Source: Bacteroidota bacterium (lineage in GTDB: Bacteria; Bacteroidota; Ignavibacteria; Ignavibacteriales; Ignavibacteriaceae). Taken from it: a stretch of 64,000 nucleotides of DNA. The stretch covers positions 1 through 64,000 of the forward strand of contig JAKAJV010000117.1 of assembly GCA_021813585.1 (NCBI GenBank). Direction: 5' to 3'. This document shows positions 21,404-39,125 of the stretch, piece by piece (position 1 is the stretch's first letter; each line of letters begins with the position of its first letter). A program made the translations under genes and the position numbers. Below the pieces are notes generated by a model, which did no database searches, was not told where the DNA came from, and saw only the letters and a list, made by a program, of their open reading frames with translations.

Positions 21404-24400
21404 TTACTTCAGCAGCAGCATCTTCTTGGAAATTACACTGCTTCCTGAAATCATTCTGTAAATATATGTGCCGCTCGCTAGTCTGCTAGCATCAAAGCTG
21501 ATTGAATGCGAGCCCATTTCCATCTTCTCATTAACCAATGCAACAACCTTCTCACCAAGCATATTATACACGGTTATGTTAACGAGACCGCTATTTGGTA
21601 TCTCGAATTCAATAGTTGTTACAGGATTAAATGGATTAGGATAATTACCGAGCTTATAGCTTAACACAACATTGTTCTTAACTTCTACAATAGCGGAATA
21701 CTTATAAGTCCCGTCAATGTCGTTCTGTTTTAGTCTGTATTGGAAATTACCATTGAGAGCTTCCTTATCTAGAAAAGAATATTGTTTCAAAGCTGTCGAG
21801 TTTCCGCTCCCTTTTACCGAGCCTATCTTTATCCAGTCCTGACGGGGCGTAGTCCCGACCTGCCGGGACGAAGCCCGTTCGATGTCCCAGCCGAGATTAT
21901 TAAGTTCGGAAGCCGTAGTCCACTTAAGTTCTACGCCTTTCTCGCTTGCCAGACCTGTAAACGAACTAAGTTCAACAGGCAGAGGATTGGATACATCGCT
22001 GACAGTCCATTTTGAAAACGAAGTAACACCGTTAGCCGTAATTGTTCTAATCCCACCCGCACCCGATGCATCTGTACCTGTCATACTTGTAAACGGTGCC
22101 CAGTTAACGCCGTCAGACTTCCAGACAACCGCTTTCGTCATAGCCAGCCCGTTATCGTCACCGGAGTCCCAGGTAAATGTAAGATTTCTTCCGGATGCAG
22201 GAGCCGATGCCGACTGAGAAATTGTCCACGATCTTTTGATGCTCATGTTATTCCCTACCTTAACCATGCCGTTGTTACCGGCAATGCGGGTAACTGTTAC
22301 GTCTCCCAGGTTATCAGTCCCGGAATTAAGACCGATCCCTAATCCTCCGATATTCGGATTAGCGCCTGTACCGACTGTTTGAGTTGTTGTTGCGGTACCT
22401 AGAATATATTTGCCCGCGGATTCAACAACGGATGCGCCGGAAGCAATAGTAGCTGTACCGGCTGCAGTAACCATTTTTGATAATGTATCTGCAAAAGTAT
22501 TTGTGAATGAAAGATTGTTTACGGTATCCGGCAGAAGTAGACCCGTAGCCTGAGCGGTTTTGCTGTTGAATTCATAGTTCGCACTTGAACTTAAGTTTGC
22601 TATGTTACTAGTAGTAGCAAAAGTAAAGCTTCCATCTAAACCTCTAGGATTTCCGCATTTAATCGTAGCTCCGGGAAGTAAAGAAAATGTACCCGGCGAG
22701 CTACCTGATAATGTAACAACGGTTGTATCGTCAAGATAGACAGTTGAATTGTTGAGAACTACAAATCTCAAGTTATCCATTGTAGAAAGACCGGTCGGCT
22801 TAGTAAATTTTTGAACTCCGCTACCGCAGAAAATTACCGAATCGGCGTAACTAGGACTTGAATGACCGCGGAAAGCATTGGAGCCGGAACTAAGAATAGT
22901 TACATTACCAAAAACTTTTAATACATTTGTTACACCGCTGCCGTTCAAATACAAAACACCCTTAGATGTTATATTGCCATGAACAGTTAAGCCTTGATTA
23001 GCTTGACCTGAACCTGTTCCCATCGACATGCCAGCCGTACTATCGATTATAAGATTTCCCATTAAATTAACAGGCATAAAAGTTCCAGCCTTGGTAAACA
23101 GCGCAACATAATTATTTCCAGCGCCAGTAGGATCATTAGTGTTATGTATCGTTAAATCTCCGTTTATAGTTGCACCATCAATACCCAGTCTAACTGCACC
23201 GGGACATGCAGGGAAATCTACTTTAACATTGTAAAAAGTTTGATTACCGTTGCCGTATCCTTTTGTATTGGTTGTAGTAGCTGTAAAAAGACACATAGAA
23301 CCTGTATTCCACGTTGCAAAAGGAATAGCGCCGGAAGTATTGTGTTGATAGGTTCCGTTCACAACAGCAGTATCCATGCAGGTAAGACCGGCAGTATTAA
23401 TTAATGTTCCGTCTACCTGCAGCACTCCATTAATTTTTTCAGCCGTTTTAACTGTATCAATTGAGCTGTTGCCGATAGTAAGATTATTTATTGTTGCAGG
23501 AAGCTGCGAGCCAAAGTATTGTAAACCAGTTCCGACGTAGCTATAGTTCGCAGCAGTGTCAAACGTAGCAGTTGTTGTTTGGACCGGACCTAAAACAGGA
23601 TCCAAGCCGGATGGCGAGCCGACTTTAATATCGGCACTGTCGCTTAATGCAAAAGAACCTGTCCCAGTAACTTTTGAATCCGGATTTGAAAAATCAGCAG
23701 TGCCTTCGGATAAAATATTAAGTGCGCCGCCTGCCGCTACATTTATCGCAGCTATAGCTCCATTGCTTAAATACGGAGCTACTTTTCCTGCTGTATTAAC
23801 AGTGCCTGCGGAGCCAATATTTAACGTACAAGATTTACCCGCAGCGCTTACAAGATTCATGTTGCTATGCGAAGACATATTCAATGTACCATTAACATTT
23901 ATAGTCATATTAGTATTTCCGAGAGTACTTGAAGATGAACTAGTATTAAAATAACTATAAGGGACAAAGTTAAGCGTAACACCAGGGTTTATGATAATTG
24001 TAAAGCTGGTTACCGATGCCGAATTATCAGCATAAATACCCGCACCGCCTGTACCGGACGTACCGGAATAGTTTATATTTGCATTAGCAGCAAACACAAA
24101 TTCTAGATCGCCGGCAGCGCTTGAGTTTGGTCTTAGCCTTGCGATGTTTACAGTGCCGGTTCCGCCTAATGTTATCGTTCCGGTGTATTTATCTTCAATT
24201 GAAAGAGCATCCGTAGGACCGTTTCCGAACGAGCCGTCTACCCAGATAGTACTTCCGTTTACTTTTAGATAAACTATGCTGCTGGTAGGCAGAGTGTTTT
24301 TCGATTGTAATACTGCGCCGGATTGAATGATAAGGTTCTTACAATTCTGGCTTGAAACGTCATAGGTAACGGTAGTACCCGAGAGAATAAAAACAGTTTT

Positions 24401-24604
24401 GCTTGAAGAAGGCGTGCTGGTAGTTGTACTGTCGAAAGCACTATTGGAACTGTATAACTTCCACGTAGAGGCACTACTCCAGTTACCGGAAGCAACCGAT
24501 CCGTAGTCTCCAATTGCGGGCACCGGCTGTGCATTCATTTTTGCTGCAGCTAAAAGAGCCAGTATAAAAACTAAAGATATTCCGTTAGATAGAAATCTTT
24601 TCAT
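21404..24604 (-). CDS. Large secreted beta-structure protein with T9SS C-terminal sorting domain
   Basis: Signal peptide; repetitive G/S/T/N-rich beta repeats; YKLGNYPNPFNPVTTIEFEIP...GTYIYRMISGSSVISKKMLLLK. Confidence 0.8.
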   Translation of the reverse strand: MKRFLSNGISLVFILALLAAAKMNAQPVPAIGDYGSVASGNWSSASTWKLYSSNSAFDSTTTSTPSSSKTVFILSGTTVTYDVSSQNCKNLIIQSGAVLQSKNTLPTSSIVYLKVNGSTIWVDGSFGNGPTDALSIEDKYTGTITLGGTGTVNIARLRPNSSAAGDLEFVFAANANINYSGTSGTGGAGIYADNSASVTSFTIIINPGVTLNFVPYSYFNTSSSSSTLGNTNMTINVNGTLNMSSHSNMNLVSAAGKSCTLNIGSAGTVNTAGKVAPYLSNGAIAAINVAAGGALNILSEGTADFSNPDSKVTGTGSFALSDSADIKVGSPSGLDPVLGPVQTTTATFDTAANYSYVGTGLQYFGSQLPATINNLTIGNSSIDTVKTAEKINGVLQVDGTLINTAGLTCMDTAVVNGTYQHNTSGAIPFATWNTGSMCLFTATTTNTKGYGNGNQTFYNVKVDFPACPGAVRLGIDGATINGDLTIHNTNDPTGAGNNYVALFTKAGTFMPVNLMGNLIIDSTAGMSMGTGSGQANQGLTVHGNITSKGVLYLNGSGVTNVLKVFGNVTILSSGSNAFRGHSSPSYADSVIFCGSGVQKFTKPTGLSTMDNLRFVVLNNSTVYLDDTTVVTLSGSSPGTFSLLPGATIKCGNPRGLDGSFTFATTSNIANLSSSANYEFNSKTAQATGLLLPDTVNNLSFTNTFADTLSKMVTAAGTATIASGASVVESAGKYILGTATTTQTVGTGANPNIGGLGIGLNSGTDNLGDVTVTRIAGNNGMVKVGNNMSIKRSWTISQSASAPASGRNLTFTWDSGDDNGLAMTKAVVWKSDGVNWAPFTSMTGTDASGAGGIRTITANGVTSFSKWTVSDVSNPLPVELSSFTGLASEKGVELKWTTASELNNLGWDIERASSRQVGTTPRQDWIKIGSVKGSGNSTALKQYSFLDKEALNGNFQYRLKQNDIDGTYKYSAIVEVKNNVVLSYKLGNYPNPFNPVTTIEFEIPNSGLVNITVYNMLGEKVVALVNEKMEMGSHSISFDASRLASGTYIYRMISGSSVISKKMLLLK

Positions 24605-24663: not shown

Positions 24664-26205
24664 TTATTTTAGAAGTGTCATCTTTTTTATGACGGAAAAA
24701 TCTTCCGCGCTTAGCTTATAGAAATAAATTCCGCTGGTTACTTTTTGCCCGGCTTCATTTGTTCCGTTCCACCTTACCGTATGCAAGCCGGAAGACTCGT
24801 TACCGTTTACTAGAGCCTTAACAACCTGCCCGAGTGAATTGTAGACAACCAAACTAACTTCCGATTGATATGGAACGGTATATTGAATTATTGTCTCCGG
24901 GTTGAAAGGATTGGGATAATTTTGCATCAAAGTAAAATCTAAAGGTCTGTTCATCATTTCTTTAATACCGACTGTAGTTGTATCTACCCAGACCAGGGAG
25001 CCGAGCGGCTTGCTGTTTGTTCCGGCTGTAAAAGACTTTGTATCTTTTGAATATCCGAAGTCAAAATCGCCTTGAACACGTATTCCGACTGCAGTAGTAC
25101 TGGATGATAATAACGGATCGTTCCAGTATGCTGTAACCAAACTAGCTACCGACGGAGGAGGAGATGTAAACGCTACAAGCTCGGAAATATTTGTTGTAGT
25201 GTCGAACCCCGAAGAATCAATCATCGCTTTCAATTGAGAATTAAAATTATCAAGGGCAACAACCGTATCCGGATACAGGCTGCTGCACGCCGGGTCTAAA
25301 GCAAAATTGTTATTGTGGACTTCGACCGACTGTTTTTTCCCATCATAGACGGATGAAGATAGAGGCTGGATTGAAATTATTGTCCCCGTTCCCGACTTAG
25401 CATGACCGATAAATCCCGAATTAATAACCAAGTTATTTGTAAAAACAAGTCTAGGGCATTCACCAAAGTCCATCAAATTAATTCCAATATTCAAAAATGT
25501 ATTATGATCTACAAATGCATAATTCAAAGTCCCGCCTCCGTCTCTAAGACACCTGGAGCTTATATTGTAAAAGGTGCAGTTCTGAATGTATAAAGTATCC
25601 ATGTCCACGCCTCTGTCATCAACTCCTCTTCCGTTGGCATAATCCGAAGCATTGCTCCTGATGGTTGTATTTATGAGATATATTTTGCTGTCTTTGTTAT
25701 CGGTTCTTATTGCAGACTGACCGGAATTTTCCAGGAAACAATCATAAAGGTAAATTCGTATGCTGTCTGCCTGGTCTCTAATAATTTGGCTAAGGTATGC
25801 GCCGCCCTCATCCTTTGCGGTTACATATATTCCTTTTAATGTAAGATTGGACTTCAACCTGAAAGCGATGTCGGAAACGCCGCCGGAGCCTAAGCCGGGA
25901 ATTAATTGCGGCCTGGCACCCTGGCCGTCTGCCGCTACAATTGTAAGGGGCATAGAATTTCTGATTGAACCGTTCAACAGATAGATGGCACCGCTGCCTC
26001 TTTGAAGCCTGAAGATTGCATTGGGATTTGTGTTGTTGTTAATCGCATCGTTTAATGTTGAAAATCCCGGAACTACATCTATATATACTTGAGAAAAACT
26101 TTCTTGTCCGGCAAGAAGCAGCGAGAGAACAAACATTAGCGGAATTACTAAACTGTAGTAACGCTTCTTCATATTAACTACCTCAATTGTTGTTTTAATT
26201 GTCAT
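24664..26205 (-). CDS. Right-handed parallel beta-helix protein with T9SS sorting domain
   Basis: LTLKGIYVTAKDEGGAYL...LYDCFLENSGQSAIRTDNKDSKIYLINTTIRSN...LYIQNCTFYNISSRCLRD...; LMQNYPNPFNPETIIQYTVP. Confidence 0.8.
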   Translation of the reverse strand: MTIKTTIEVVNMKKRYYSLVIPLMFVLSLLLAGQESFSQVYIDVVPGFSTLNDAINNNTNPNAIFRLQRGSGAIYLLNGSIRNSMPLTIVAADGQGARPQLIPGLGSGGVSDIAFRLKSNLTLKGIYVTAKDEGGAYLSQIIRDQADSIRIYLYDCFLENSGQSAIRTDNKDSKIYLINTTIRSNASDYANGRGVDDRGVDMDTLYIQNCTFYNISSRCLRDGGGTLNYAFVDHNTFLNIGINLMDFGECPRLVFTNNLVINSGFIGHAKSGTGTIISIQPLSSSVYDGKKQSVEVHNNNFALDPACSSLYPDTVVALDNFNSQLKAMIDSSGFDTTTNISELVAFTSPPPSVASLVTAYWNDPLLSSSTTAVGIRVQGDFDFGYSKDTKSFTAGTNSKPLGSLVWVDTTTVGIKEMMNRPLDFTLMQNYPNPFNPETIIQYTVPYQSEVSLVVYNSLGQVVKALVNGNESSGLHTVRWNGTNEAGQKVTSGIYFYKLSAEDFSVIKKMTLLK

Positions 26206-26223
26206 TCGTTTTAAAAAATATTT

Positions 26224-29100
26224 TTAAAATTTGTATTTAATTCCCAGGTCTGCAGTCCATCCGTAAAATTCTTCGTTAGTAGGAAATCTTTCCGTGCCCA
26301 AATAAGATTTATCCGGCACATTGGTAAGATTATTTACATCTAAATAAATACTAATCCTGTCGTAAACTTTCTGCTGCACAGCCAGGTCCCATCTTAATTG
26401 CTGATTGGAATAACCGTCAAGTTCGGGTCTCGCTCCAATAAGTGAAAGGCTTTTTCCCTGGATTACAAGAGATAGTCTTCCAGAGAACCCGCCCTTTTCA
26501 TATCCGACAGCCAAGTTACCAACATAATCGGCCTGGTCCGGCATACTGCCTTCTCTTACGGTATCAATAATAGTTGGAGAGAAGGGAGGCAAAGGACTGC
26601 GTGGTCCGATTGCAAAATAAGGATAATAAGTTTTTGACTTCATTAAGGACAGGTTAGCCGAAAAAATAATTCCGTCTAACGGGGTGGGAAGCAAAGCCAT
26701 ATTTGCCTGCAAATCAATTTCAACACCGTAAACAGTAGATGGAGACTCTGCGTTTACCGGCTGAGTAAGCATAAAGCCGTTGTAAGTTCCGCCGTCTTGA
26801 ATTCTAGATTGTCTTAGATAGTCAACATCCCATAGTTTTTTATAAAATCCGCCGATGCTGAATAACCCGTATTGGTTGAACATCGAGAAGTACAAATCGT
26901 AATTCCAGGCCTTTGTATGCTTCAGCTCGGGATTGCCTTTGTTGATAGTGTTTCCCAGGTAATCAATTTGTTCCCACGGAACAAGGTTAAAATAATCCGG
27001 TCTGGAAAGTGTCTTGGTAACAGCTGCCCTAATGTTAAACCATTCGGTTAATTTATATTTCATTTGAATCATGGGCAGAATATCATAGTATGATCTATCG
27101 CCTACTGTATCTTTGGCACCGGCTAAATCCGGGGTTGATTCTTCGCCTGAGACCGGAGTGCCGGTAATACTTTTATAATCGCTGTACGTCCTCTCAAAAC
27201 GTACACCGGGTATAAACAATAATTGCGGCGTGTAGGAAATTTCTGCCATTATATACGCTGCCGAAATATTCTCGGATGCGTTATAGTTTTGAAGCGCGAT
27301 CTGCGGATTATAAACATAAAGCGGCTTGCCCGATTGTAATTTTGCATACTGCATATTGTTTAGAAAATCGTTCATCAACTGGCGGTCTAGGCTGGCGCCG
27401 AAATCATATTCGCCGTTTAAAAATTCTCCTACCTGGTTATCAGGAGCTAAAAAGTTGCCCATTAAGATTTTTTTGCCCGGAGTGAGAGCAAATGTTCTGT
27501 AGAAAGCGTTGCGATTTTTGGAAGACATCAATCCGATGGAATCAATATTGAATGATGAAGTCCAGTATTGGTTATTATCCCTGTTCCTTTTATTCCACCT
27601 AAGCTTTCCTCCAAATTTGATATAACCGGCGATGTCATCGTTTAACGCAAAATTAATTTTTGTGTTTAACTGTGCGGTAATATTATGATCCAGCACTCTG
27701 TAACTATTAATGTCGCTTTCCTTAAAGGTTGTATTGTTTAAATCATTCTTTACCCCTAAAGGAATTAGCTGGGGACCCTGGTCGACAATTATATCGTTTT
27801 TAAGTGAGGACAATTCCTGAAAGATGTTATTAAATTCCTGCGGAGTGTTTTGGTCCGATTCCGAATAAGAACCTGCCCAATCAATTTGAACAAAGCCTAT
27901 ATTATGGTTGCCTTGAACACCGGTAGTCAGCAGTTGAAGATCGATGTTGCTTGAACGGATTTCGTACTGTGTTCTGCCGTTTGCTATCTGGTATCGTTTT
28001 CTTCTTCTTAACTGGTCTCTACCGGTTTTAGACCAGAACCCGTTAAGAAAAATATTACCGTTTCCGAGGTCATAGTCGGCGGCTAGGCTGGCGCCGTATC
28101 TATCTCTTAATTCTTTAATGTCTACAAGGTTTAAGTTATCTACCTTTATTAAGGCGCCGGCAGCAGTTTGGCTGGCAAACGAATATGCAACATTCTGATC
28201 GTCTGAACCTCTATTTGCACGCTGAATATTTGCTGTAGCTATTATTCCCACCGAATTATTTAAAAACCTGTTGCTTATACTTAACGAGCCGCGATAATTT
28301 CCGTAATAATTTTCATGCGAGTTGTAGCCTTTTTGAAACTTCAAATCTGTATGGAAATCATCCGGCGCTTTTTTAACGGTGAAATTAATTGAACCGCCTA
28401 CGGCGTCGGCATCTTTGTCGGCAGTTAATGATTTGTAGACTTCGATACCTGCCAGCATGTCAGATGATATTGAGCTAAGGTCCACCGATCTGTCTTCTGC
28501 ATCGGTCGACGGAATTTTTTCTCCGTTGATCGTTATGTTGTTATATTTGGGAGCCAATCCCCTTACGACAACTTTCAGCCCTTCTCCGGCATCTCTTTCC
28601 AGAGATATACCGGGCAGTCTAGCCAAAGACTCGGCAGCATTCTGATCGGGTAGCTCTTGAATCTTGTCTTTGGAAACAATGTTTACGATGGAGTTTGAAT
28701 TCAACTGTTGATTTATTGCTGCCTGCTGGCCTTGGAGTTGTGCGGTTATAACTACTTCGCTACCCTGAATTACACCCGGCTTTAATTTAACATCTGCATA
28801 GGTTACTTTATTTTGTTCCACTCTTACCAAGGCGCTGTCAGTCCGATATCCCACATATCGAAAAATAATTACAACGTTACCGGGTGAAATATTAGATAAG
28901 TGATATTTTCCGTCCATATCCGAATTAGTTCCTATGGATGTACCCGCAACCAAGATATTTGTTCCCCATAAAGGAGTACCATCAGTGGCATCGGAGACTA
29001 TGCCGCTGACACTTCCATTTTGAGCAAAAAGGTTTTGGAACCCTGCTAAAAAAAATAAAATAATTAAACCAAGTAACCAGTTTCTTAGAAACGACCCCAT
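26224..29100 (-). CDS. TonB-dependent receptor with N-terminal carboxypeptidase-regulatory-like domain
   Basis: GSVSGIVSDATDGTPLWGTNILVAG...; plug IQELPDQNAAESLARLPGISLERDAGEGLKVVVRGLAPKYNNITING; C-terminal barrel. Confidence 0.9.
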   Translation of the reverse strand: MGSFLRNWLLGLIILFFLAGFQNLFAQNGSVSGIVSDATDGTPLWGTNILVAGTSIGTNSDMDGKYHLSNISPGNVVIIFRYVGYRTDSALVRVEQNKVTYADVKLKPGVIQGSEVVITAQLQGQQAAINQQLNSNSIVNIVSKDKIQELPDQNAAESLARLPGISLERDAGEGLKVVVRGLAPKYNNITINGEKIPSTDAEDRSVDLSSISSDMLAGIEVYKSLTADKDADAVGGSINFTVKKAPDDFHTDLKFQKGYNSHENYYGNYRGSLSISNRFLNNSVGIIATANIQRANRGSDDQNVAYSFASQTAAGALIKVDNLNLVDIKELRDRYGASLAADYDLGNGNIFLNGFWSKTGRDQLRRRKRYQIANGRTQYEIRSSNIDLQLLTTGVQGNHNIGFVQIDWAGSYSESDQNTPQEFNNIFQELSSLKNDIIVDQGPQLIPLGVKNDLNNTTFKESDINSYRVLDHNITAQLNTKINFALNDDIAGYIKFGGKLRWNKRNRDNNQYWTSSFNIDSIGLMSSKNRNAFYRTFALTPGKKILMGNFLAPDNQVGEFLNGEYDFGASLDRQLMNDFLNNMQYAKLQSGKPLYVYNPQIALQNYNASENISAAYIMAEISYTPQLLFIPGVRFERTYSDYKSITGTPVSGEESTPDLAGAKDTVGDRSYYDILPMIQMKYKLTEWFNIRAAVTKTLSRPDYFNLVPWEQIDYLGNTINKGNPELKHTKAWNYDLYFSMFNQYGLFSIGGFYKKLWDVDYLRQSRIQDGGTYNGFMLTQPVNAESPSTVYGVEIDLQANMALLPTPLDGIIFSANLSLMKSKTYYPYFAIGPRSPLPPFSPTIIDTVREGSMPDQADYVGNLAVGYEKGGFSGRLSLVIQGKSLSLIGARPELDGYSNQQLRWDLAVQQKVYDRISIYLDVNNLTNVPDKSYLGTERFPTNEEFYGWTADLGIKYKF

Positions 29101-29323
29101 TTAACTCTCCTTTAAAAACTAGAAAATTGATAAATTTCAGATATACTTAGTATACCAGGTAAGCCAACTTAAATATTTTGGAATATTTTGTCAAGTTAAA
29201 TTTAAAAGTTTCATTAAAAATATAATTTCTGCTACTATAATTTGGGGAATAATTATGCTTTTAATCCGCCTTCTCCCAGAAACTTTCGGGATTCGGCGGA
29301 CGAGAAGGTTGGGTATAATTCCC

Positions 29324-29339
29324 CCGTCGCTTGCGACGG
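29324..29339. repeat. Perfect palindrome CCGTCGC-TT-GCGACGG
   Basis: Read directly. Confidence 0.8.
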
Positions 29340-29410
29340 AAAAGGGTTCGAGGCTTGCCCTGAGGTTCATACCATTGATTTTATCGCATCATTTCCGGCA
29401 TGTTCATTTT

Positions 29411-29554
29411 ATTGCTTCGGAGAAAAAGCTGGAATTTAATTTAAGCATCAATCCATCTAATACTGTTGCTGAGGGTGACGGATACAGCATTCACAAAATA
29501 TCTTTATACTTAATGAACAATGCTATAGAATTTACAAAAAGGTATCGGAACAGA
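29411..29554 (+). pseudogene. Relic of a histidine kinase ATPase (HATPase_c) N-box region
   Basis: SEKKLEFNLSINPSNTVAEGDGYSIHKISLYLMNNAIEFTKRYRNRIY resembles the 'GD..SIHQIL.NLLNNAIKFT' pattern; no complete kinase around it. Confidence 0.5.
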
Positions 29555-29764
29555 ATTTACCGTTACCTTTTTAAGATGAAATTATATAACAGTTTTTTAT
29601 CTGATGACGGAGTTCCAAAGAGTAGAGATAAAGAAGGGCGAAGAAGTTACGGGAAATAATTTGTTCGGAAATTTTCATTGCTAACTTTGGACGTTCTAGA
29701 CGGATAAACCTTGCCTTCCGGAGTAAAATATTCCAAGCCACAGTGGTTAAATAAAAATATTTTC

Positions 29765-29811
29765 TTGCCTTTTAAAAAATAATTTTATATTATTGAAACG
29801 GTTCAATTAAT
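29765..29811 (+). promoter_or_regulatory. Sigma70-like promoter (TTGCCT-N17-TATTAT) overlapped by LacI-type operator TTGAAACGGTTCAA
   Basis: 24-nt block 29788-29811 identical to 52787-52810. Confidence 0.75.
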
Positions 29812-30160
29812 ATCTAACCTTTTTAATGAATATTAAACTTTTATTGCGTTCTTTATTTTATAGATTGTTGACCGGGCATTTTACTTATGCGAATCGTTGG
29901 TTTATTTTACAATAAAACATAAATATTGCTAATAGTGTTTATCACCTGCTAATTGCATAAAATTATTTTCGCAAAAATTGTAAAAGCTTATTTTGCTCAA
30001 AATGTATTATATAAATAGATATTTGTAATTCGAATACCGTTAGCTGTCACTTAAGTGTTGTGGTTAAAGAATAGTAAGCCGTAGCGTAAAAATTAATAAT
30101 ATCTAATCATTAAGGATGAATAAATTCCTTAAGAATAAATAATATTTCCGAGGAGGAAAA

Positions 30161-33100
30161 ATGACCTTTGGTTTTTACCTTTCCAGAAGCAAAATAGCTT
30201 CAGCACTTATTTTATTCCTTTTAATAATTTTTCAATCCTCTGCTTTTGCTCAGTCCGGTTCAATAGTCGGCCGTGTCTACGATAAAGAATCGAAAAGCGA
30301 TTTGATAGGCGCAAATATAATAGTTAAGAACACTAGCTTCGGTGCAGCTTCAGACCTGGACGGCAGATACCTGATTAGAAATATTCCTGCCGGCAGGCAT
30401 ACACTGGTCATCTCTTATATTGGTTATAACACTATTTCTAAAGTTATTACCATAACCGCAAATAAAACCTTGGAAGAGAACTTCTATTTGCAAGCCAAAG
30501 CAATTGAAGGCAAGACTATTACAATCACTGCTCAGGCGCAAGGTCAGGTTTCAGCAATACAGCAGCAGCTGGCGTCTAATAAAATTGCAAACATCGTATC
30601 CGAGGCAAAAATTCAGGAACTGCCCGACTTTAATGCCGCGCAGGCTTTAAGCCGGTTGCCCGGTATTTCAACAACTCAAAGCTCGGGCGAAGCTAATAAG
30701 ATTGTTGTAAGAGGATTAGCACCGCAGTATAATGAAGTTGCTATTGGCGGAATAACACTCGCCTCTACAGGCAGCTCTCAAATCGGTATCGCTTCGCAGG
30801 GAGGCACTACCGGGTCCATCAGTAACGATAGGAGCGTTGATCTTTCTATGGTTACACCCTACATGATAAAAACGATAGAAGTATACAAAGCATTAACTCC
30901 GGATATGAATGCCGACGCTATCGGAGGATACGTCAATATGGAATTGAGAGAAGCTCCCTCCGGCATTCGAGGCGATATGCTCTGGCAGTCGGGCTACACA
31001 GCAAAAAGCGGTACTTACGGAAACTACAGAGCAATTGCTTCCGGCAGCGATAGGTTCTTTGATGATCAGCTTGGCGTATATGCATTGCTTAATATTGAAT
31101 CCTATGATCGTAATTCGGATAATATGAATGCGTCATACTATATTCACGGCGTTTATCCGGGTGCAAACGGATACAGACCGGTGGATGTAAATACGGTTAC
31201 TCTTCAGCGGCATATCGAAACCAGGAAGAGATACGGGGGTAACTTGATTCTGGACTACCGCCTGCCTTCCGGTTCTATCAAGCTTATTAACATGTTCAGC
31301 CGCTTGAATTCCCAATACAATAATTATCAAACTTTGCTAAATTATCTTACAGGTGATGTAAACTTTAATTATGGAGAAGGAAACAGTAATGTAGACCTCA
31401 TGGTTAACTCTTTAGATATTACAAACGACTTCGGATTCATGTCTGTGGATATAAAAGCGGCAAATAATTATTCAAGAAATTTCCTGCCTTACTCGCCGGC
31501 TTTTTCGTTTACTCAAACCGGAGGCGTCGGCAAATCTATGGATAACGTAACACCGGACAACTTACTCTATTTGATTAAGTACAGCGGCGCCTCGAATACT
31601 TTTTTAACCAACATATCTTTATTCAGCTCAGACTATAAAGAAAACGATCAAACCTATAAAGGCGATTTTAAAGCGCCCTTTAATCTCGGTACAATTTTAT
31701 CCGGCTTCCTTAAGTTCGGCGGTGAGTTCAGATATAATTTACACAACAACACTCAAAACACTCCTTATGCAGGTTTAAGAGGCGGTTCCGCTATTGCCAA
31801 TGCAATGATAACGGGAATTAGAAACCGGTATCCCTGGATTAAATATGATTCCGCTGCCGCCGAATTCCCGGCAAGTAATTTTACCAATACAGATCACGAT
31901 CTTAACGCAAGTTTCCTCGGCGATAAATTCGGCAGCTTGCTTTGGGTTACCGATCCAAGTCTGCTGACGGATATTACTAATTACATCCGCTCTACTCCTG
32001 CCTTTAATGCGGATAGTGCGACTGCTATAAATCCCGGTGGCTGGTTTGACGGATATTTCCAAAAATATCCGAACACCTATAAATATGTCGAGCGATATTA
32101 TGGTTCATACGTTATGTCGGAAATAAATTACAACGACTTAATGGTAGTAGGCGGTATACGGTACGAAAAAGATAACGGCCTTTACCAAGCTTATAATTTG
32201 GTAGACGGACGTGATATTAAATCTCAAAGATATTACATGGTTACTTCATATCCTCAAAATGAATTTTGGCTGCCTATGGTTCAGGCAAGATATACCATAA
32301 CCAGCTGGTTCGACGTGCGGTATGCTTACACCCAAACTCTCGCCCGGCCCGACTACCATCAGCTGTCGCCCCACTATTATATGGATTACAGCCGGAACAA
32401 CGTTTGGGCAGGCAATCCTACCCTTATACCTGCACATGCATATAACCATGATCTAATACTTACTTTTCACAGCAACGATATCGGGCTTTTAACCATAGGC
32501 GGTTTTTATAAGACTGTAAAAAACTTTACATATTCTACCCAATACACTTTGAATAAAAGCGCGCCCGCCGGACTTGATTCCGTCGGATCATTTAATATAG
32601 GCGGCGTCTCGCCGAATCCCGGTGCTGCAACCTTATATACGTATATCAACAGTCCCTACCTTGCTTATGTAAAAGGAATTGAATTTGATTTCCAGACCAG
32701 GCTCTGGTATTTGCCTGTTCCGTTTGACGGGATTGTACTGGGACTAAATTATACTCATATTTCTTCGTCGGCTACATACCCCTGGAGAGATAATAGATCG
32801 GATTATTCTAAACGGCCGCCGGTAACTCAAGTCTTTGACAGCACCCGCTCCGGCCGGTTGATTTTTCAGCCGAACGACATTATGAATGCTTACTTTGGTT
32901 ATGACTATAAAGGCTTCTCAATCCGTCTATCCTTCTTGTTCCAAGGAAACTCTGTTAGTTATGTCGGAAATTTTCCTGAACAAGATGGTTTTTCCAGAGA
33001 TTATTTCCGCATCGATGCATCGGCCAGGCAAACGCTGCCCTGGACCGGCTTTGAAGTTTATTTAGATGTAAACAATCTTAATAACGTAAACAATATTTCC

Positions 33101-33181
33101 GCGCAGCAGTCAATAGGAGGTTTTACAAACGAACAGAACTATGGACTGACTGCTGACATTGGAATTAGATATAGATTATAA
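30161..33181 (+). CDS. TonB-dependent receptor with carboxypeptidase-regulatory-like domain (paralog of 26224..29100)
   Basis: GSIVGRVYDKESKSDLIGANIIVKN...; IQELPDFNAAQALSRLPGISTTQSSGEANKIVVRGLAPQYNEV; strong SD gaggagg upstream of ATG. Confidence 0.9.
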   Translation: MTFGFYLSRSKIASALILFLLIIFQSSAFAQSGSIVGRVYDKESKSDLIGANIIVKNTSFGAASDLDGRYLIRNIPAGRHTLVISYIGYNTISKVITITANKTLEENFYLQAKAIEGKTITITAQAQGQVSAIQQQLASNKIANIVSEAKIQELPDFNAAQALSRLPGISTTQSSGEANKIVVRGLAPQYNEVAIGGITLASTGSSQIGIASQGGTTGSISNDRSVDLSMVTPYMIKTIEVYKALTPDMNADAIGGYVNMELREAPSGIRGDMLWQSGYTAKSGTYGNYRAIASGSDRFFDDQLGVYALLNIESYDRNSDNMNASYYIHGVYPGANGYRPVDVNTVTLQRHIETRKRYGGNLILDYRLPSGSIKLINMFSRLNSQYNNYQTLLNYLTGDVNFNYGEGNSNVDLMVNSLDITNDFGFMSVDIKAANNYSRNFLPYSPAFSFTQTGGVGKSMDNVTPDNLLYLIKYSGASNTFLTNISLFSSDYKENDQTYKGDFKAPFNLGTILSGFLKFGGEFRYNLHNNTQNTPYAGLRGGSAIANAMITGIRNRYPWIKYDSAAAEFPASNFTNTDHDLNASFLGDKFGSLLWVTDPSLLTDITNYIRSTPAFNADSATAINPGGWFDGYFQKYPNTYKYVERYYGSYVMSEINYNDLMVVGGIRYEKDNGLYQAYNLVDGRDIKSQRYYMVTSYPQNEFWLPMVQARYTITSWFDVRYAYTQTLARPDYHQLSPHYYMDYSRNNVWAGNPTLIPAHAYNHDLILTFHSNDIGLLTIGGFYKTVKNFTYSTQYTLNKSAPAGLDSVGSFNIGGVSPNPGAATLYTYINSPYLAYVKGIEFDFQTRLWYLPVPFDGIVLGLNYTHISSSATYPWRDNRSDYSKRPPVTQVFDSTRSGRLIFQPNDIMNAYFGYDYKGFSIRLSFLFQGNSVSYVGNFPEQDGFSRDYFRIDASARQTLPWTGFEVYLDVNNLNNVNNISAQQSIGGFTNEQNYGLTADIGIRYRL

Positions 33182-33270: not shown

Positions 33271-35031
33271 ATGAAATACTTTTTAACAGTAATATTAATG
33301 GCAGCATTTTTTACTGCTTCGGTGTTCGCGCAGAAGGATACTGTAAACGTACCGGATACCTATGCTTCCGGCGGAACTGAAGGAACCCTGAACAATGCTG
33401 TAACAGCAGCCATAAATGCGGGTAAGCTTTCCAATACTGTTTTCAAATTATCGCCTTACGGTCTTTATATTTTGAGCGGAAGTATTGTAACGCCTTCCGG
33501 TACAACACTGGAAATTGTTGCCGATCCTCCTGGAAATACACAAGCTTCGGCTCCGCCAATGATAGCGTGGACACCCAGCAGCGCACCGAATAAGGCATAC
33601 AACTTTGATATTGGCGGCAATGTAATAATGAAGAATGTTTGGCTGTTTTACGGCAGTACAAACGGTACACAATCCGGCTCTAGCCTGCGCGTAGGCGATA
33701 GTGCCGGTACAGGCGGGCATGCAGAATTCGATAATGTAATTTTTGATTATTCCAGCTGTCCTGCAAACGCTTCCGGTGCGGTGGAAATATACTCCCTCCA
33801 TTTTGTCGGGAAATTCAATAACTGCTATTTTAAGAACTGTATAGACACACATCTTAGGTATTACGGCAGAGCTCTTTCATTCCGCTTCTCTAGCACGGGC
33901 CTGCATGCGGATAGCGTTTGGTTTGAGAACTGCACTTTTGCAAACATGGGATATGTATATATGCAAGAGGGCAATGAGTACGGGGATAACGTTTACTTCA
34001 ACCATTGTACTTTCCTTAACGTAGTTATGTTTACTCTGGAATCGACATGGTGGTGGAAGATGAACGTTACAAATTCTCTTTTTATAGATACCTTTATGTT
34101 CGGCTCAATCCCTGCTCAGGATACAGCCGGGAGCTTTGGCGGTACTATAGCAATTGACAGCGTGGCTAATTTTCCGTTTACGGTGCCGTTTACAGAACTG
34201 GACCGCAGGATTCTCTTTGCCAACAACGCCTATTTTATTGAACCTTGGCTTGTTGATTGGATGAAGAACAATCCTTACAGTAAGAATTTGCATAAGAATA
34301 GGCAGGACGATGAAATTCCCGTACCGCAGCCAATGCTAAGTGCGGGGACGCTTAGGTTCCTAGATACAACCAACGTAGACGGAAGTAAGATGTTCCCTTA
34401 CATGAATAAAGCCAATCTATACGACGGAGCGGATCCCCGTTTCGTTCTGGAGCCGACAAATATAGACTCTCTGGAACAGTTTATGTTCCATAAATGGTCG
34501 GACAATGCAAATGTTAATTGGGCCTGGCAGCCGGACAGCGATGCTGCCCAAATTTGGCCCATGCATGAAAATTTATCTTATGCTAACGATACTTTAAAGA
34601 CCGCAGGAATGGGCGGCTATCCGTTGGGTGATTTGTATCATTGGTGGCCTGCGCAGTATACACAATGGGCGGCTCAGCAAACTGCCGAACACAACAGAAT
34701 ATATTCCTGGCTTAATAATGGTAAGGATCCGTTAACCGGTATTGCTGAGTTAAAAAATAATGTACCGTCGGAATTTTCACTTAGCCAGAACTATCCTAAC
34801 CCGTTCAACCCAACTACTAACATCAATTTTACTATTCCCAAGAGCGGCTTCGTTTCCCTTAAAATCTTTAATGCTCTCGGGCAGCAAGTTGCTACTTTGT
34901 TCAGCGGCTTCCAGAAAGCCGGTTCATATAAAGTTGACTTCAATGCATCTGCACTGGCAAGCGGTATTTATTTCTATAGACTGCAATCCGGCAGCAACTC
35001 CGTTACTAAGAAATTGGTTCTTATGAAGTAA
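33271..35031 (+). CDS. Right-handed beta-helix/pectate-lyase-like protein with T9SS sorting domain
   Basis: VNVPDTYASGGTEGTLNNAVTAAINAG...VIMKNVWLFYGSTNG...VWFENCTFANMG...VYFNHCTFLNV; LSQNYPNPFNPTTNINFTIP. Confidence 0.8.
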   Translation: MKYFLTVILMAAFFTASVFAQKDTVNVPDTYASGGTEGTLNNAVTAAINAGKLSNTVFKLSPYGLYILSGSIVTPSGTTLEIVADPPGNTQASAPPMIAWTPSSAPNKAYNFDIGGNVIMKNVWLFYGSTNGTQSGSSLRVGDSAGTGGHAEFDNVIFDYSSCPANASGAVEIYSLHFVGKFNNCYFKNCIDTHLRYYGRALSFRFSSTGLHADSVWFENCTFANMGYVYMQEGNEYGDNVYFNHCTFLNVVMFTLESTWWWKMNVTNSLFIDTFMFGSIPAQDTAGSFGGTIAIDSVANFPFTVPFTELDRRILFANNAYFIEPWLVDWMKNNPYSKNLHKNRQDDEIPVPQPMLSAGTLRFLDTTNVDGSKMFPYMNKANLYDGADPRFVLEPTNIDSLEQFMFHKWSDNANVNWAWQPDSDAAQIWPMHENLSYANDTLKTAGMGGYPLGDLYHWWPAQYTQWAAQQTAEHNRIYSWLNNGKDPLTGIAELKNNVPSEFSLSQNYPNPFNPTTNINFTIPKSGFVSLKIFNALGQQVATLFSGFQKAGSYKVDFNASALASGIYFYRLQSGSNSVTKKLVLMK

Positions 35032-35138
35032 TAAAATTCTAACCTCCAAGGTTAATGTACTTTAAATGGTGCGCTAACCTTGAAGGTTTTCATGTAAAAA
35101 TTAAATTAAATTATTTTCAACTCAGACTAGGAGGCAAT

Positions 35139-38100
35139 ATGAAAAGAATTACAGATCCGATTCTTTTTAGTTTGTTCTTTTTCTTTACTTGGATAAATTT
35201 ACTCCATGCACAGAATCTCAAACAGGATTTTGAAGGCTATAATATCGGAGATTCTTTGTCTACCATTGGCTGGAGTGCATCCGATATCCAAGCAAAGATT
35301 GCCGCTGATCCGGTTACAAGCGGGAATAAGGTTCTGAAAAATACAGTTCACAATTATAATGCGGCTCCCGTTATCAAGTTTGTTCTGCCTGCCGGTAAAA
35401 CCCTGGCAGATTATAAATCCTTTTCTTTTAAAGGCTATTTTGCCCAAGGAGATGTAGGCTATAAGAGCATTGTAGTTGAAGCTTACCAAACAAAGCCAAC
35501 TGCTCAGTTTGGTAATAATGCAAATGCTAAAATAGGCACATGGGCCCGTAACCAAATGGGTTCCACCGGCTGGGAAAATATCACTGTCGATATTACAAAT
35601 AGTTCCGGCTTTAAAGATACCGTGTATCTTGCCTTTGGAATAAATTGTGCCGGTACAGGGAATGTAGGCGGTACAGGTGTTACTACAATCTGGTATGCCG
35701 ATAGCATAACACTTGTAGCTAAGCCAGCAGTAGTAACAGACACAACCCTGGTTTCCCAATGGGGCATTGCATCTTACCATGGCAGCGGATTTCATCTGAA
35801 AGTAAGTACTGCAGGAGACAGTGCAAACCTATATGGCACTAACCTTAGCGGTTGGGAAAGTGTACGTGGCGCTTTTTCCAGTCCCATTGTTGGCAATACC
35901 GGTGCAAACGGGGCTATTGTTGTTTCCGGTAAAATTACTTTTGTAGGTGAAGGCCCGGATACGTGGAGCGCCCTAAGGTATGGAGTTTATAATAATTTGG
36001 TTCCGGGAACTCTTCAATATGCAGGAACCGATTCGGTAATCTGGGCAGGGATGGGCAACAACTCCTATGGCTATTCGTTTATGCCTCAGAGCGGCGTAAC
36101 CTATGTCGGTAATATTCCAAGTGGTTTCAATGCATCGCAGGGCATAGCACTAAACGGAAGCTGGCTAAGCTCATACGCGGGTGTTGGCTTTGGCGGGCTA
36201 ATTCAGCAGGCTCCTGCTCGGGCTGTTATGGATGCAGGGACATATGATTTTGCATTTTCGTTTCATCAGCTTTCCGATGGCACCAAGAGAGTTAATTTCT
36301 ATTTGATCAAAGAAGGAACTCCCACAACTTACTGGTATGGCGGCAGCTATATCCTTCAAGATACTGCCTCGATGATGAGAACAGATACGTTGAATGCCGT
36401 TTGCTTTGGAGTTGAAAAGCTTCCGAACATGACAAGCATGATTGTATCTAACGTACATGTTTCTTTAGGCGCCGATATTACCGTACCGGTAGCTCCCTTC
36501 CAGGCATTCTATGTTGATCAATGGGGCTCATTCGGCGGTAGAACCGGCGGCTGGCATTTTGTTGTAGACCCGGATACGCTTATCGGTAATGCAGGTGTTG
36601 CAGGCAGTAAGGTTCCTACCGGCAGCTGGGCAACAATCCGGGGGGGCTTTACTTACCCTGTTACCGCAACTCTATCGAAAGCACTAATTGTTACGGGGTC
36701 TATTACATTCACCGGCTCAGGCCCTATAACCTGGAGCGGTCTGCGTTATGGCCTCTTTAGAAACGATAGTGCCGGTACGGTAAAATATGCTTTAACCGAT
36801 TCATCGCAATGGACCGGCAAAGACGGCTTCTCATATGGCTATATGTTTACTCCTCATAGCGGAACGAACGATCAAACAAGCTGGGGTGTGGGAGGAGTAT
36901 CAACTCAAGGAGTATGCAACGGAGGTACCTGGCTGTCTACTTACGGCGCTACTTTCCCGTTGGGTCAGCCGGTAGATCAAGCGCCTGCGCGGGCAAATTT
37001 TGATGCGGGCACTTATGACTTTATGATTTCAGTGCAGCCCCAGGCAGACGGCAGTAATCAAGTATCTGCATACATGGTTAAGGAAGGCAATCCGGTTACA
37101 TACTGGTACGGCGGCACATTTAAAGATACATCGCATGTATCGGCAACGTTTAACGGAATAGTGTTTGGGTTGGATCCGAACTACGATCAAACCAACAGCC
37201 CGATAAGCGCAATGACGCTGACAAATGTTAAAGTGGATTTAGGAACGCCTCCGCCGATTCCGCCGGCGCCGTTCCAGGCATTTTATGTAGATCAATGGGG
37301 AATGGTAGGCAACAGAACAGGCGGCTGGCATTTTGTTGTAGACCCGGATACGCTTATCGGTAATGCAGGTATTGCCGGCAGTAAGGTTCCTACCGGCAAC
37401 TGGGCTACAATCCGCGGCGGATTTTCAGTGCCTGTTACGGCTACACAATCAAAGGCAATAATTGTAACCGGGTCTATAGAATTTGTAGGCTCAGGCCCCG
37501 TAACCTGGAGCGGACTGCGTTATGGATTGTTCAGGCATGACAGTGTAGGAACAGTACAGTATGCAAAAACGGACTCAGCCCGCTGGGGAACAATAAGCTC
37601 AGGTGCATTTACATGGGGTAAGGAAAATTACGCATACGGCTACATGTTTACACCTCATAGCGGAACGAACGATCAAACAAGCTGGGGTGTGGGAGGAGTA
37701 TCGACTCAAGGAGTATGCAACGGAGGTACCTGGCTGTCTACTTACGGCGCTACTTTCCCGTTGGGTCAGCCGGTAGATCAAGCGCCTGCACGGGCAAATT
37801 TTGATGCGGGGAAATACGACTTTATGATTGCTGTTCAGCCGATGGCAGACGGCAGTAATCAAGTATCTGCATACATGGTTAAGGAAGGCAATCCGGTTAC
37901 ATACTGGTACGGCGGCACATTTAAAGATACATCGCATGTAAGTACGACATTTAACGGAATAGTGTTTGGATTGGATCCGAACTACGATCAAACCAACAGC
38001 CCGATAAGCGCAATGACGCTGACAAATGTAAAAGTAGATTTAGGAACGCCTCCGCCAATTCCGCCGGCGCCTTGGGAGAATTATTATATAAGCGATTGGG

Positions 38101-39125
38101 GATTTTACCAGGGCCAGATGGGTGGCTGGCTGTTTACTCCCGATATTGTAGGTAATGCTTCGATGTCGGGCACAAATCCAAACACAGGCTGGGCAATGCT
38201 GCGCGGAGGTTTTGCAAGTGCTACCTCACCTCGCAACGGCGTAGATTCGGCTCTTGTAATTAACGGAGATCTTGAGCTTGACGGCGGCGGCTTCCAAAGC
38301 GCCGGAAGCTTAAGGTTCGGCTTGTTCTACAACGATAACCCGGGTAAGGTAAAAGTAATTTCGGATACGATTAGCGGAGTCGTTTACGATTCAACACAGT
38401 GGACAGGCTCTAACGCGCATGAATCCGGATACCTGTTTATACCGACGAGCGGCTCTAATAATCCTATAAACTGGGGCTCTACACCTGGAATTTGGGGAAG
38501 CGTATTAAACGGAGCTTGGGACAGCACCAACACAGGTTACGTTCTTGGGAGTAATCTTCAGACTCCGGCTAATGCAGCAGGAACAGCTGGTATGTACAGC
38601 TTTAGTATATCGGTTGCACCTGCGGGAAGTGGCACACAGATAATAGCCTATCAGCTTAAAAAGTCGGATAACAGCTATATGATTCAAGGTATCGCAACAG
38701 ATAGCCACAGTCCGCTGCCGACTACCAAGTTCAATGGTATAGTCTTTGGGCTTGGCACCGGCAATACGACTACTGCGTTGAAGCTGACAAATGTTCAGGT
38801 TACTTTAGGCAAGCCGCTTGTTATTACCGGTATAGAGCAGAATGGTGACGGCTTAATACCTACCAGGTATGAGCTGAGCCAGAACTATCCGAATCCTTTT
38901 AACCCGTCAACAACGATAAATTTTGCTTTACCTAAGAGCGGTAGTGTAACATTAAAAGTATATGATATTTTGGGTAGATTGGTAACAACGCTAATAAGCA
39001 GTGATATGAAAGCAGGTTACCATAATATTAACTTTAATGCAACAAATCTGGCTTCTGGCGTTTATTTCTACGAGCTGAAAGCAGGAGACTTTGTAAGCGT
39101 TAAAAAATTAATGCTGCTCAAATAG
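35139..39125 (+). CDS. Secreted protein with an N-terminal carbohydrate-binding-like domain, four tandem ~260-aa repeats and a T9SS sorting domain
   Basis: SD aggaggc at 35129-35135 and ATG at 35139; repeats at about 35740-36490, 36498-37260, 37272-38060 and 38070-38820; LSQNYPNPFNPSTTINFALP. Confidence 0.8.
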   Translation: MKRITDPILFSLFFFFTWINLLHAQNLKQDFEGYNIGDSLSTIGWSASDIQAKIAADPVTSGNKVLKNTVHNYNAAPVIKFVLPAGKTLADYKSFSFKGYFAQGDVGYKSIVVEAYQTKPTAQFGNNANAKIGTWARNQMGSTGWENITVDITNSSGFKDTVYLAFGINCAGTGNVGGTGVTTIWYADSITLVAKPAVVTDTTLVSQWGIASYHGSGFHLKVSTAGDSANLYGTNLSGWESVRGAFSSPIVGNTGANGAIVVSGKITFVGEGPDTWSALRYGVYNNLVPGTLQYAGTDSVIWAGMGNNSYGYSFMPQSGVTYVGNIPSGFNASQGIALNGSWLSSYAGVGFGGLIQQAPARAVMDAGTYDFAFSFHQLSDGTKRVNFYLIKEGTPTTYWYGGSYILQDTASMMRTDTLNAVCFGVEKLPNMTSMIVSNVHVSLGADITVPVAPFQAFYVDQWGSFGGRTGGWHFVVDPDTLIGNAGVAGSKVPTGSWATIRGGFTYPVTATLSKALIVTGSITFTGSGPITWSGLRYGLFRNDSAGTVKYALTDSSQWTGKDGFSYGYMFTPHSGTNDQTSWGVGGVSTQGVCNGGTWLSTYGATFPLGQPVDQAPARANFDAGTYDFMISVQPQADGSNQVSAYMVKEGNPVTYWYGGTFKDTSHVSATFNGIVFGLDPNYDQTNSPISAMTLTNVKVDLGTPPPIPPAPFQAFYVDQWGMVGNRTGGWHFVVDPDTLIGNAGIAGSKVPTGNWATIRGGFSVPVTATQSKAIIVTGSIEFVGSGPVTWSGLRYGLFRHDSVGTVQYAKTDSARWGTISSGAFTWGKENYAYGYMFTPHSGTNDQTSWGVGGVSTQGVCNGGTWLSTYGATFPLGQPVDQAPARANFDAGKYDFMIAVQPMADGSNQVSAYMVKEGNPVTYWYGGTFKDTSHVSTTFNGIVFGLDPNYDQTNSPISAMTLTNVKVDLGTPPPIPPAPWENYYISDWGFYQGQMGGWLFTPDIVGNASMSGTNPNTGWAMLRGGFASATSPRNGVDSALVINGDLELDGGGFQSAGSLRFGLFYNDNPGKVKVISDTISGVVYDSTQWTGSNAHESGYLFIPTSGSNNPINWGSTPGIWGSVLNGAWDSTNTGYVLGSNLQTPANAAGTAGMYSFSISVAPAGSGTQIIAYQLKKSDNSYMIQGIATDSHSPLPTTKFNGIVFGLGTGNTTTALKLTNVQVTLGKPLVITGIEQNGDGLIPTRYELSQNYPNPFNPSTTINFALPKSGSVTLKVYDILGRLVTTLISSDMKAGYHNINFNATNLASGVYFYELKAGDFVSVKKLMLLK

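Follow-up and report, generated by a model that had tools for sequence, protein, structure and literature searches.

TonB-dependent receptors paired with type IX-secreted beta-helix proteins, a candidate SusD-free glycan importer in Ignavibacteriaceae

The SusCD pair is regarded as the defining signature of glycan loci in Bacteroidota, and predictors of polysaccharide utilization loci (PULs) search for it. How, then, could glycans be taken up at a locus that encodes two TonB-dependent receptors and is devoid of SusD? Such a locus was analysed in a Bacteroidota bacterium of the family Ignavibacteriaceae (assembly GCA_021813585.1; genome of 4.54 Mb, 99.95% complete), within positions 1–64,000 of contig JAKAJV010000117.1, hereafter referred to as the window. 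The two arms of the locus are divergently arranged, and in both of them the receptor is followed by a beta-helix protein carrying a type IX secretion system (T9SS) signal and then by a large T9SS protein (Table 1). The six core ORFs are present where a preliminary description had placed them, the sole discrepancy being the start of the large right-arm ORF (BIG_R), for which the mechanical start is at 35055 and position 35139 is an internal ATG directly preceding the signal peptide. The right-arm beta-helix protein (BH_R) is the immediate partner of its receptor, the gap between the two genes being 89 bp. A scan of the region separating the arms for sigma-70-like promoters returned 7 sites against 5.9 expected, an excess that is not significant. 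Recent inverted duplication of one arm could be ruled out, as the identity between the arms is only 33% for the receptors and 21% for the beta-helix proteins.

The C-terminal T9SS sorting domain was found in all four non-receptor proteins of the two arms (TIGR04183, 40–50 bits; cut-off 23) and the genome itself encodes a T9SS (SprA/Sov at C132, 1,045 bits summed). The four proteins are therefore predicted to be type IX secretion cargo.

Table 1. Predicted features of the two arms and of their surroundings (positions in the window).
Feature	Position	Strand	Remarks
SSF sodium:solute symporter, left arm	16403..18103	-	
GH2 beta-glucuronidase	18128..19999	-	NF007538, 584 bits (cut-off 544)
GntR-HTH / LacI-sensor regulator, left arm	19944..21104	-	
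BIG_L, left-arm large T9SS protein	21404..24604	-	G8 domain near N-terminus, beta-rich repeats
BH_L, left-arm beta-helix protein	24664..26205	-	T9SS sorting domain; 18 bp past receptor
Left-arm TonB-dependent receptor	26224..29100	-	TIGR01782 above cut-off
Divergent intergenic region separating the arms	29101..30160	.	
Right-arm TonB-dependent receptor (TIGR01782-like)	30161..33181	+	CarboxypepD_reg_2, Plug, barrel
BH_R, right-arm beta-helix protein	33271..35031	+	Sec signal, right-handed beta-helix, C-terminal GDLxW segment, T9SS type A sorting domain
BIG_R, right-arm large T9SS protein	35139..39125	+	N-terminal jelly-roll-like region, four tandem ~250-aa lectin-like repeats, T9SS domain
BIG_R lectin-like repeat 1	35751..36512	+	
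BIG_R lectin-like repeat 2	36513..37286	+	Modelled from 36495, pLDDT 89.5
BIG_R lectin-like repeat 3	37287..38087	+	
BIG_R lectin-like repeat 4	38088..38843	+	
GH30 with internal T9SS-like domain	39214..41115	+	
GH35/GH42-like glycosidase with DUF5597	41401..43119	+	
GH43 with GH43_C2	43123..45273	+	
GH43-CBM6 with T9SS domain	45309..47585	+	
SASA-type carbohydrate esterase	47707..49701	+	
GH10 endoxylanase with T9SS domain	49767..51371	+	
LacI-family regulator	51537..52580	+	
Xylose isomerase-like TIM barrel	52884..54203	+	
GH3	54228..56552	+	
MFS_2 sugar transporter	56767..58185	+	
GH8	58194..59453	+	
GH115 alpha-glucuronidase	59474..62461	+	
Second GH10	62700..63686	+	

Domains were assigned with Pfam and NCBIfam profiles, the NCBIfam cut-offs being 310 bits for TIGR01782 and 368 bits for TIGR04056. 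Both receptors contain CarboxypepD_reg_2 and Plug domains. In each of them the TIGR01782 match spans the whole barrel, with 375 bits for the left receptor and 282 bits for the right one, the latter match being full-length yet below the cut-off. The SusC/RagA profile TIGR04056 covers only residues ~31–187 (57–67 bits) and is thus restricted to the N-terminal domain, which rules out SusC/RagA identity. By these profile matches the left receptor is assigned to the TonB-Xanth-Caul type rather than to SusC, and the right one probably so. In Xanthomonas and Caulobacter, receptors of this type import plant sugars without SusD.

Searches with three SusD families (PF07980, PF12771 and PF14322) yielded zero matches in the window and in the whole genome; in the control set each of the profiles recovers Bacteroides. 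A SusD gene just outside the window, or hidden elsewhere in the genome, is thereby excluded, the contig ending at 70,317. The proposal of SusD-independent uptake made in the preliminary description thus stands as far as the absence of SusD is concerned, but this absence is expected for the receptor type and hence is no surprise by itself; the notable element is the beta-helix partner, more than the missing SusD. The lineage as a whole does not lack SusD, which is present in 36 of the 146 genomes of the same order, as well as in Melioribacter roseus (PMC3534657). Since one of the relatives carries a SusD alongside at least eight beta-helix pairs, and SusD occurs in these 36 genomes, the receptor/beta-helix pair is not a simple substitute for SusCD across this lineage.

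By gene content (TonB-dependent receptor, regulator, inner-membrane permease and carbohydrate-active enzymes, with no SusD) the locus corresponds to the proteobacterial CUT loci (PMC1790865), with which it shares receptors resembling TIGR01782, sugar regulators, inner-membrane permeases and plant-glycan enzymes, xylan loci included. However, neither T9SS nor a beta-helix partner has been described for Xanthomonas or Caulobacter.

In order to remove the ascertainment bias of a search driven by the beta-helix protein, receptors of the clade were picked by TIGR01782 score alone, blind to their neighbours. The beta-helix gene directly follows the receptor in 48 of the 49 evaluable cases, the sole exception being a tandem receptor with the beta-helix gene after the second copy. 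Among genes of these loci other than TonB-dependent receptors, only 1 of 765 has such a beta-helix protein next to it downstream, and the adjacency therefore exceeds chance. Conservation of synteny in relatives, a point on which the preliminary description had left itself open to refutation, thus goes far beyond what that description could know. Among the named genomes, a set overlapping the 49, the beta-helix gene is next to the receptor in 66 of 76 cases and at most two genes away in 72. In the genome studied here all four receptors of the clade have a beta-helix neighbour (0/15 for the other receptors). In the 20 loci selected phylum-wide by the beta-helix profile, the receptor adjoins; the pair is spread across Bacteroidota and is also found in Calditrichota, KSB1 and Marinimicrobia.

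Divergence of the receptors parallels that of the beta-helix proteins (Mantel r = 0.918, 90 pairs). Shared species history as the source of this correlation was controlled for by exchanging partners only within genomes: r was 0.918 for within-genome paralogs (121 pairs), against a mean of 0.33 and a maximum of 0.78 in 2,000 partner swaps. Receptor and beta-helix protein evolve as one unit, and paralogous pairs of one genome retain their partner specificity. It is accordingly very improbable that the two genes are merely inherited in one operon, with the receptor acting alone and the beta-helix protein being an independent surface adhesin. The CUT receptors of Xanthomonas do function with neither SusD nor a T9SS partner (PMC1790865), and TIGR01782 receptors with higher scores occur without a beta-helix neighbour at L133–L135 and L139; yet the beta-helix gene adjoins the receptor in essentially all clade members while the downstream genes change completely, and the partner specificity of paralogs argues in the same direction.

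The AlphaFold2 model of BH_R is a beta-helix (pLDDT 86.6, pTM 0.89), for which Foldseek returned PL6 alginate lyases as the best structural neighbours; TM-scores to known folds were moderate (0.42–0.48). Right-handed beta-helices are frequent among polysaccharide-active enzymes, so that the partner might act enzymatically at the cell surface, as a lyase, epimerase or hydrolase, trimming the glycan ahead of its import and producing the ligand of the receptor, which would account for the pairing. In profile alignment, however, the family matches residues 428–689 of 7dmk, that is, the accessory C-terminal domain of PL6, with the catalytic domain unmatched. This accessory domain is reported to assist in holding the substrate in place, although that of BcAlyPL6 shows weak lyase activity in its own right (PMC8618178). 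The catalytic N-terminal beta-helix of PL6 has a conserved Lys/Arg and the motifs NG(G/A)E, KS and R(H/S)G (PMC6627919). The present proteins have no such N-terminal part; within the domain no Lys/Arg is conserved, no basic residue reaching 70% of the 90 sequences, and identity with PL6 lyases such as BcAlyPL6 and AlyGC is rejected despite the common fold and profile homology. Furthermore, the xylan backbone contains no uronic acid and could therefore not be cut by a PL6-type lyase. The pairs adjoin differing enzyme sets (GH18, GH94, GH2, GH31, GH53, GH88, MFS), and a single family serving chitin-, galactan-, xylan- and glucuronide-type loci better suits a binder than one chemistry. We thus consider the enzymatic role unlikely. 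DUF4957 and DUF5123 proteins share the beta-helix fold, and some relatives match them (6/44 for DUF4957, best 3e-7; 4/44, weakly, for DUF5123, best 0.018), the beta-helix proteins of the window having no match at E<=0.1. The conserved C-terminal GDLxW segment sets the present proteins apart from PL6, DUF4957 and DUF5123 alike. In phmmer searches of the PDB with single window proteins, the matches were confined to T9SS tails and CarboxypepD domains or were due to chance.

The model of the second repeat of BIG_R retrieved legume lectins (Foldseek, E 2e-6); the likeness came from the fold, no sequence homologue of BIG_R being found in Pfam or the PDB. Repeats of this type were seen only next to right-arm-type pairs. 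Its four tandem lectin-like beta-sandwiches and predicted surface export recall SusE and surface glycan-binding proteins (SGBPs), from which BIG_R differs in being delivered by T9SS rather than as a lipoprotein. The right-arm gene set is that of a xylan locus (two GH10, two GH43, GH115, GH8, GH30, GH3 and a xylose isomerase-like protein), and we assign it, from gene content, to glucuronoarabinoxylan. Of the two arms for which xylan uptake had been proposed, only the right one can clearly be assigned to xylan; the left one is accompanied by a beta-glucuronidase and an SSF symporter.

A related arrangement exists in a cultured organism. The order LacI, GH43-CBM6, GH10, TonB-dependent receptor, T9SS protein at L243 is, gene by gene, that of Rmar_1067–1081 of Rhodothermus marinus, where the receptor Rmar_1070 and the hypothetical protein Rmar_1071, predicted to be extracellular and cell-attached, are predicted to be co-transcribed with the xylanase Xyn10A (PMC6987092). 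Rmar_1070/Rmar_1071 are very probably a receptor/beta-helix pair, although Rmar_1071 was left 'hypothetical' and its pairing passed without comment. The same xylan locus also carries a SusCD pair, Rmar_1077/1078 (PMC6987092), a coexistence that counts against the two-part importer proposed below. No described receptor/beta-helix pair was found in the open-licence literature, which omits most subscription papers.

The T9SS-exported partner may be released and not anchored close to the receptor. It could in that case carry glycan in soluble form or on vesicles and meet the receptor only transiently, as a glycanophore comparable to the haem carriers HmuY/HusA; T9SS export and a lipobox in 0 of 90 beta-helix proteins are consistent with this, and strict co-evolution with the receptor is equally expected of a carrier. 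Proteins with type A sorting domains generally end up attached to the cell surface, however, and the cell attachment predicted for Rmar_1071 points the same way, which makes a carrier a rather remote prospect.

We consider it probable that the receptor and the T9SS-delivered beta-helix protein form a SusCD-like two-part glycan importer. The genes, their near-obligate adjacency and co-evolution, the fold and the absence of SusD are established, and from here we infer glycan binding and complex formation: the beta-helix protein would be positioned at the outer face of the receptor, bind a specific oligosaccharide and deliver it into the barrel, where import is driven by TonB, thus doing for the receptor what SusD does for SusC. 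That the T9SS partner would capture glycan, as suggested in the preliminary description, is consistent with its fold, with the lack of lyase residues, with the enzyme context and with the co-evolution. The large T9SS protein, with four lectin-like domains in BIG_R, would contribute polymer capture, like surface glycan-binding proteins in SusCD loci. In the right arm, surface xylanases would cleave glucuronoarabinoxylan and the pair would import the fragments, their breakdown and use being completed by GH115, GH43, GH3, GH30, the xylose isomerase and the MFS permease. The left-arm pair would import a beta-glucuronide-containing glycan, which GH2 would cut and the SSF symporter would transport inward.

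Like SusC/SusD, the system comprises a TonB receptor and an adjacent surface partner, with a single pair in each glycan locus and many paralogous pairs per genome, each partner evolving with its own receptor, and with carbohydrate-active enzymes and a regulator nearby. A surface partner linked to and co-evolving with the receptor is thus found here too, with the beta-helix protein in the partner's place. In contrast, the receptor is not SusC, the genome is without SusD, and the partner is a T9SS-exported beta-helix protein with a type I signal, whereas SusD is an alpha-helical TPR-like lipoprotein.

The case is evenly balanced that these pairs constitute a second class of glycan importer of the outer membrane, obligately two-component and free of SusD, with a beta-helix in place of SusD and type IX secretion in place of lipoprotein export, widespread in Bacteroidota and the neighbouring Calditrichota, KSB1 and Marinimicrobia and missed so far, even where xylan loci were characterised, under the label 'hypothetical protein'. 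If such a class exists, many polysaccharide loci are now missed or labelled 'incomplete', and the set of receptors credited with a surface partner would change in Ignavibacteria, Calditrichota, KSB1, Balneolota and Rhodothermota. How TonB receptors could work with partners of two unrelated folds would become a testable question, and type IX secretion would gain a direct role in nutrient import. R. marinus, a thermophile that is available in culture and whose xylanase from this operon has been characterised, is a ready test bed.

The six open reading frames and the gene order of both arms are as the preliminary description gave them. The NCBIfam model TIGR01782 (TonB-Xanth-Caul) covers almost the full length of both receptors, scoring 375 bits for the left and 282 bits for the right against a cut-off of 310 bits. 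Both receptors contain a CarboxypepD_reg_2 domain and a Plug, and the SusC model TIGR04056 aligns to their N-terminal domain alone. Type A T9SS sorting domains (Pfam/NCBIfam) are present in all four non-receptor proteins, and the genome encodes SprA/Sov.

Coordinates of the features discussed
Feature	Location	Strand	Remarks
Left receptor	26224-29100	-
Left beta-helix protein	24664-26205	-
Left large T9SS protein	21404-24604	-
Right receptor	30161-33181	+
Right beta-helix protein	33271-35031	+
Right large T9SS protein	35139-39125	+
GH30 protein	39214-41115		T9SS/FlgD_ig-like domain at residues 102-182
Two neighbouring paralogous secreted proteins, upstream of the locus	15253-16386		~185 aa; NGEKIDLPI/V motif
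Receptor module elsewhere in the same genome	L077:3543-10885		TonB receptor, ~1,000-1,200-aa protein, ~335-356-aa protein

The sorting-type domain of the GH30 protein is flanked by a CarboxypepD-like stretch and the catalytic domain instead of lying at the C-terminus; such an internal position would be unusual. Relatives at two other loci (L094, L098) have similar tail-profile scores.

In order to find out how regularly receptor and beta-helix genes are paired, 59 relatives were searched with TIGR01782, the neighbourhoods of the top-scoring receptors were fetched irrespective of what adjoined them, and their ORFs were scored by profiles built from the window proteins, those above 980 bits being taken as window-type (clade) receptors. 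The arrangement noted in the preliminary description recurs in these relatives: a gene for a T9SS beta-helix protein homologous to those of both arms lies directly 3', on the same strand, in 48 of the 49 evaluable clade receptors (50 in total). The one receptor without it heads a tandem of two, and the partner follows the second. Over all pairs the gap has a median of 110 bp (range 18–284). As background, a beta-helix protein came next after 1 of 765 non-receptor genes of the same loci; within the genome studied here, 4/4 clade receptors have the partner versus 0/15 other scored receptors. A scan of named genomes, whose sample overlaps the former so that the counts are not additive, found the partner next in 66 of 76 evaluable receptors and within two genes in 72. 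It spans Ignavibacteria, Melioribacteraceae, Kryptoniota, Calditrichota, KSB1, Marinimicrobia, Balneolaceae, the cultured Gracilimonas mengyeensis, Rhodothermia, Saprospiraceae and Salinivirgaceae.

At L140/L142 two tandem clade receptors precede a single beta-helix gene, the first receptor bearing an N-terminal STN-like extension and following a FecR-like gene; one of the two may be a signal transducer.

The association was also approached from the other side, with a profile (A1) of 44 beta-helix domains stripped of their T9SS tails. It matched in 75 of 396 genomes sampled phylum-wide, weaker matches included; some of the latter are ~260-residue stretches inside ~800-aa proteins which, judging from length and the profile match to PL6, are probably PL6 lyases. 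A clade receptor adjoins the beta-helix gene in 20 loci drawn from strong matches; at L235 a mechanical ORF call falls in an overlapping frame, the match itself being immediately 3' of the receptor. A distant clade (L239, L240, L242) shows the reverse arrangement: beta-helix gene, small CarboxypepD-like protein, receptor. The middle gene there encodes a separate 225–247-aa protein resembling the receptor's N-terminal domain, and at L241 a similar small protein is placed behind the beta-helix gene.

Receptor and beta-helix distance matrices for 90 pairs correlate with r = 0.918 (0.79 when limited to receptor distances >0.5). With species history removed, by keeping only the 121 comparisons among paralogs of one genome, r was 0.918; 2,000 shuffles that swapped partners within genomes averaged 0.33 and never exceeded 0.78. 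Therefore, each receptor keeps its own beta-helix protein.

The AlphaFold2 model of the right-arm beta-helix domain (pLDDT 86.6, pTM 0.89) has its best PDB fold match in the PL6 alginate lyase BcAlyPL6 (E 1.5e-5, query TM 0.43). The main rival reading is that the beta-helix protein is an enzyme. In profile searches the family aligns to BcAlyPL6 residues 428–689, the C-terminal beta-helix domain (E 2.6e-16), which helps to fix the substrate and has weak activity only, substrate affinity residing mainly in the N-terminal domain (reviewed in PMC8618178). Across the 90 beta-helix sequences, no basic residue of the domain reaches 70% conservation; an asparagine ladder, D214 and H245 are conserved, as is a C-terminal segment around Y437 and G453-D454-L-x-x-W458. 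DUF4957 was matched by 6 of 44 relatives and DUF5123, weakly, by 4; a lipobox-like motif was found in none of the 90 proteins. The simplest reading is that the protein is a putative binder exported by type IX secretion.

The right large protein contains four ~250-residue repeats with no sequence relative in Pfam or PDB. The repeat model (pLDDT 89.5) resembles legume lectins and related concanavalin-like domains (E from 2.3e-6, TM about 0.4–0.48), and the repeat was seen only beside right-arm-type pairs, including phylum-wide loci L227–L230. The left large protein contains a G8 domain.

The right pair is followed by genes for GH30, a GH35/42-like enzyme, GH43, GH43-CBM6, a SASA esterase, GH10, LacI, a xylose isomerase-like protein, GH3, an MFS permease, GH8, GH115 and a second GH10, which makes the right arm a glucuronoarabinoxylan locus. 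Relatives of the right pair at L101, L104, L110 and L111 adjoin LacI, xylose isomerase, GH3 and MFS genes. The left pair adjoins a GntR/LacI regulator, a GH2 above the beta-glucuronidase cut-off and an SSF symporter, and the left-arm set of five genes recurs in L118 and L119. Elsewhere the pair is followed by, among others, GH18, GH94, GH2, GH31, GH53, GH88 and sugar permeases. Since CAZyme and permease genes differ from locus to locus, the pair is probably a general core for import, with one pair for each glycan.

One such locus (L243, genome G155) comprises LacI, GH43 and GH10 each with a T9SS domain, receptor (881 bits), T9SS beta-helix protein (294 bits), a protein, a T9SS protein and GH10. 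This is the printed order of Rhodothermus marinus Rmar_1067–1074 (PMC6987092), suggesting that G155 is a Rhodothermus. In the passages of that paper compared here, receptor Rmar_1070 and hypothetical Rmar_1071 are predicted to share a transcript with Xyn10A, Rmar_1071 has a T9SS domain and is predicted to be extracellular and cell-attached, a SusCD pair follows, and the pairing of Rmar_1070 with Rmar_1071 draws no remark.

The absence of SusD noted in the preliminary description extends to the whole genome (99.95% complete), where three Pfam families, each of which detects Bacteroides in the control set, found none. In Xanthomonas and Caulobacter, where CUT loci were defined, receptors take up plant sugars and SusD is missing (PMC1790865). 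We take these CUT receptors to be TIGR01782 members, from the model name and general knowledge, so that a lack of SusD is expected for this receptor type. The lineage as such does not exclude SusD: 36 of 146 genomes of the same order carry it, three belonging to the same genus, and a SusCDE operon is present in Melioribacter roseus (PMC3534657). SusCD and beta-helix pairs coexist, one genome (G056) holding one SusD and at least eight pairs.

Modules similar to that at L077 occur in the same genome at L073, L081, L082, L084, L087, L088, L089 and L093, often near T9SS cargo. In the one scanned, the longer protein had no Pfam or NCBIfam match and the shorter belongs to the PorV/PorQ family; the module may link a receptor to type IX secretion. 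In a related receptor subfamily (330–370 bits; L187, L188, L190, L191, L192), other T9SS proteins come next. The ones read (L191, L189) begin 'SNTTWTSNNVYMLDG' or similar and adjoin housekeeping genes rather than CAZymes, possibly representing a second, non-glycan receptor/T9SS pair.

TonB-dependent glycan uptake loci are of a known kind, and TonB import, SusD-free receptors and T9SS enzymes are already known. The new element, relative to the open-licence PMC papers compared, lies in recognising receptor and T9SS beta-helix protein as a near-obligate, co-evolving unit, whose linkage suggests that the pair may act by a SusD-like mechanism of glycan binding and complex formation.
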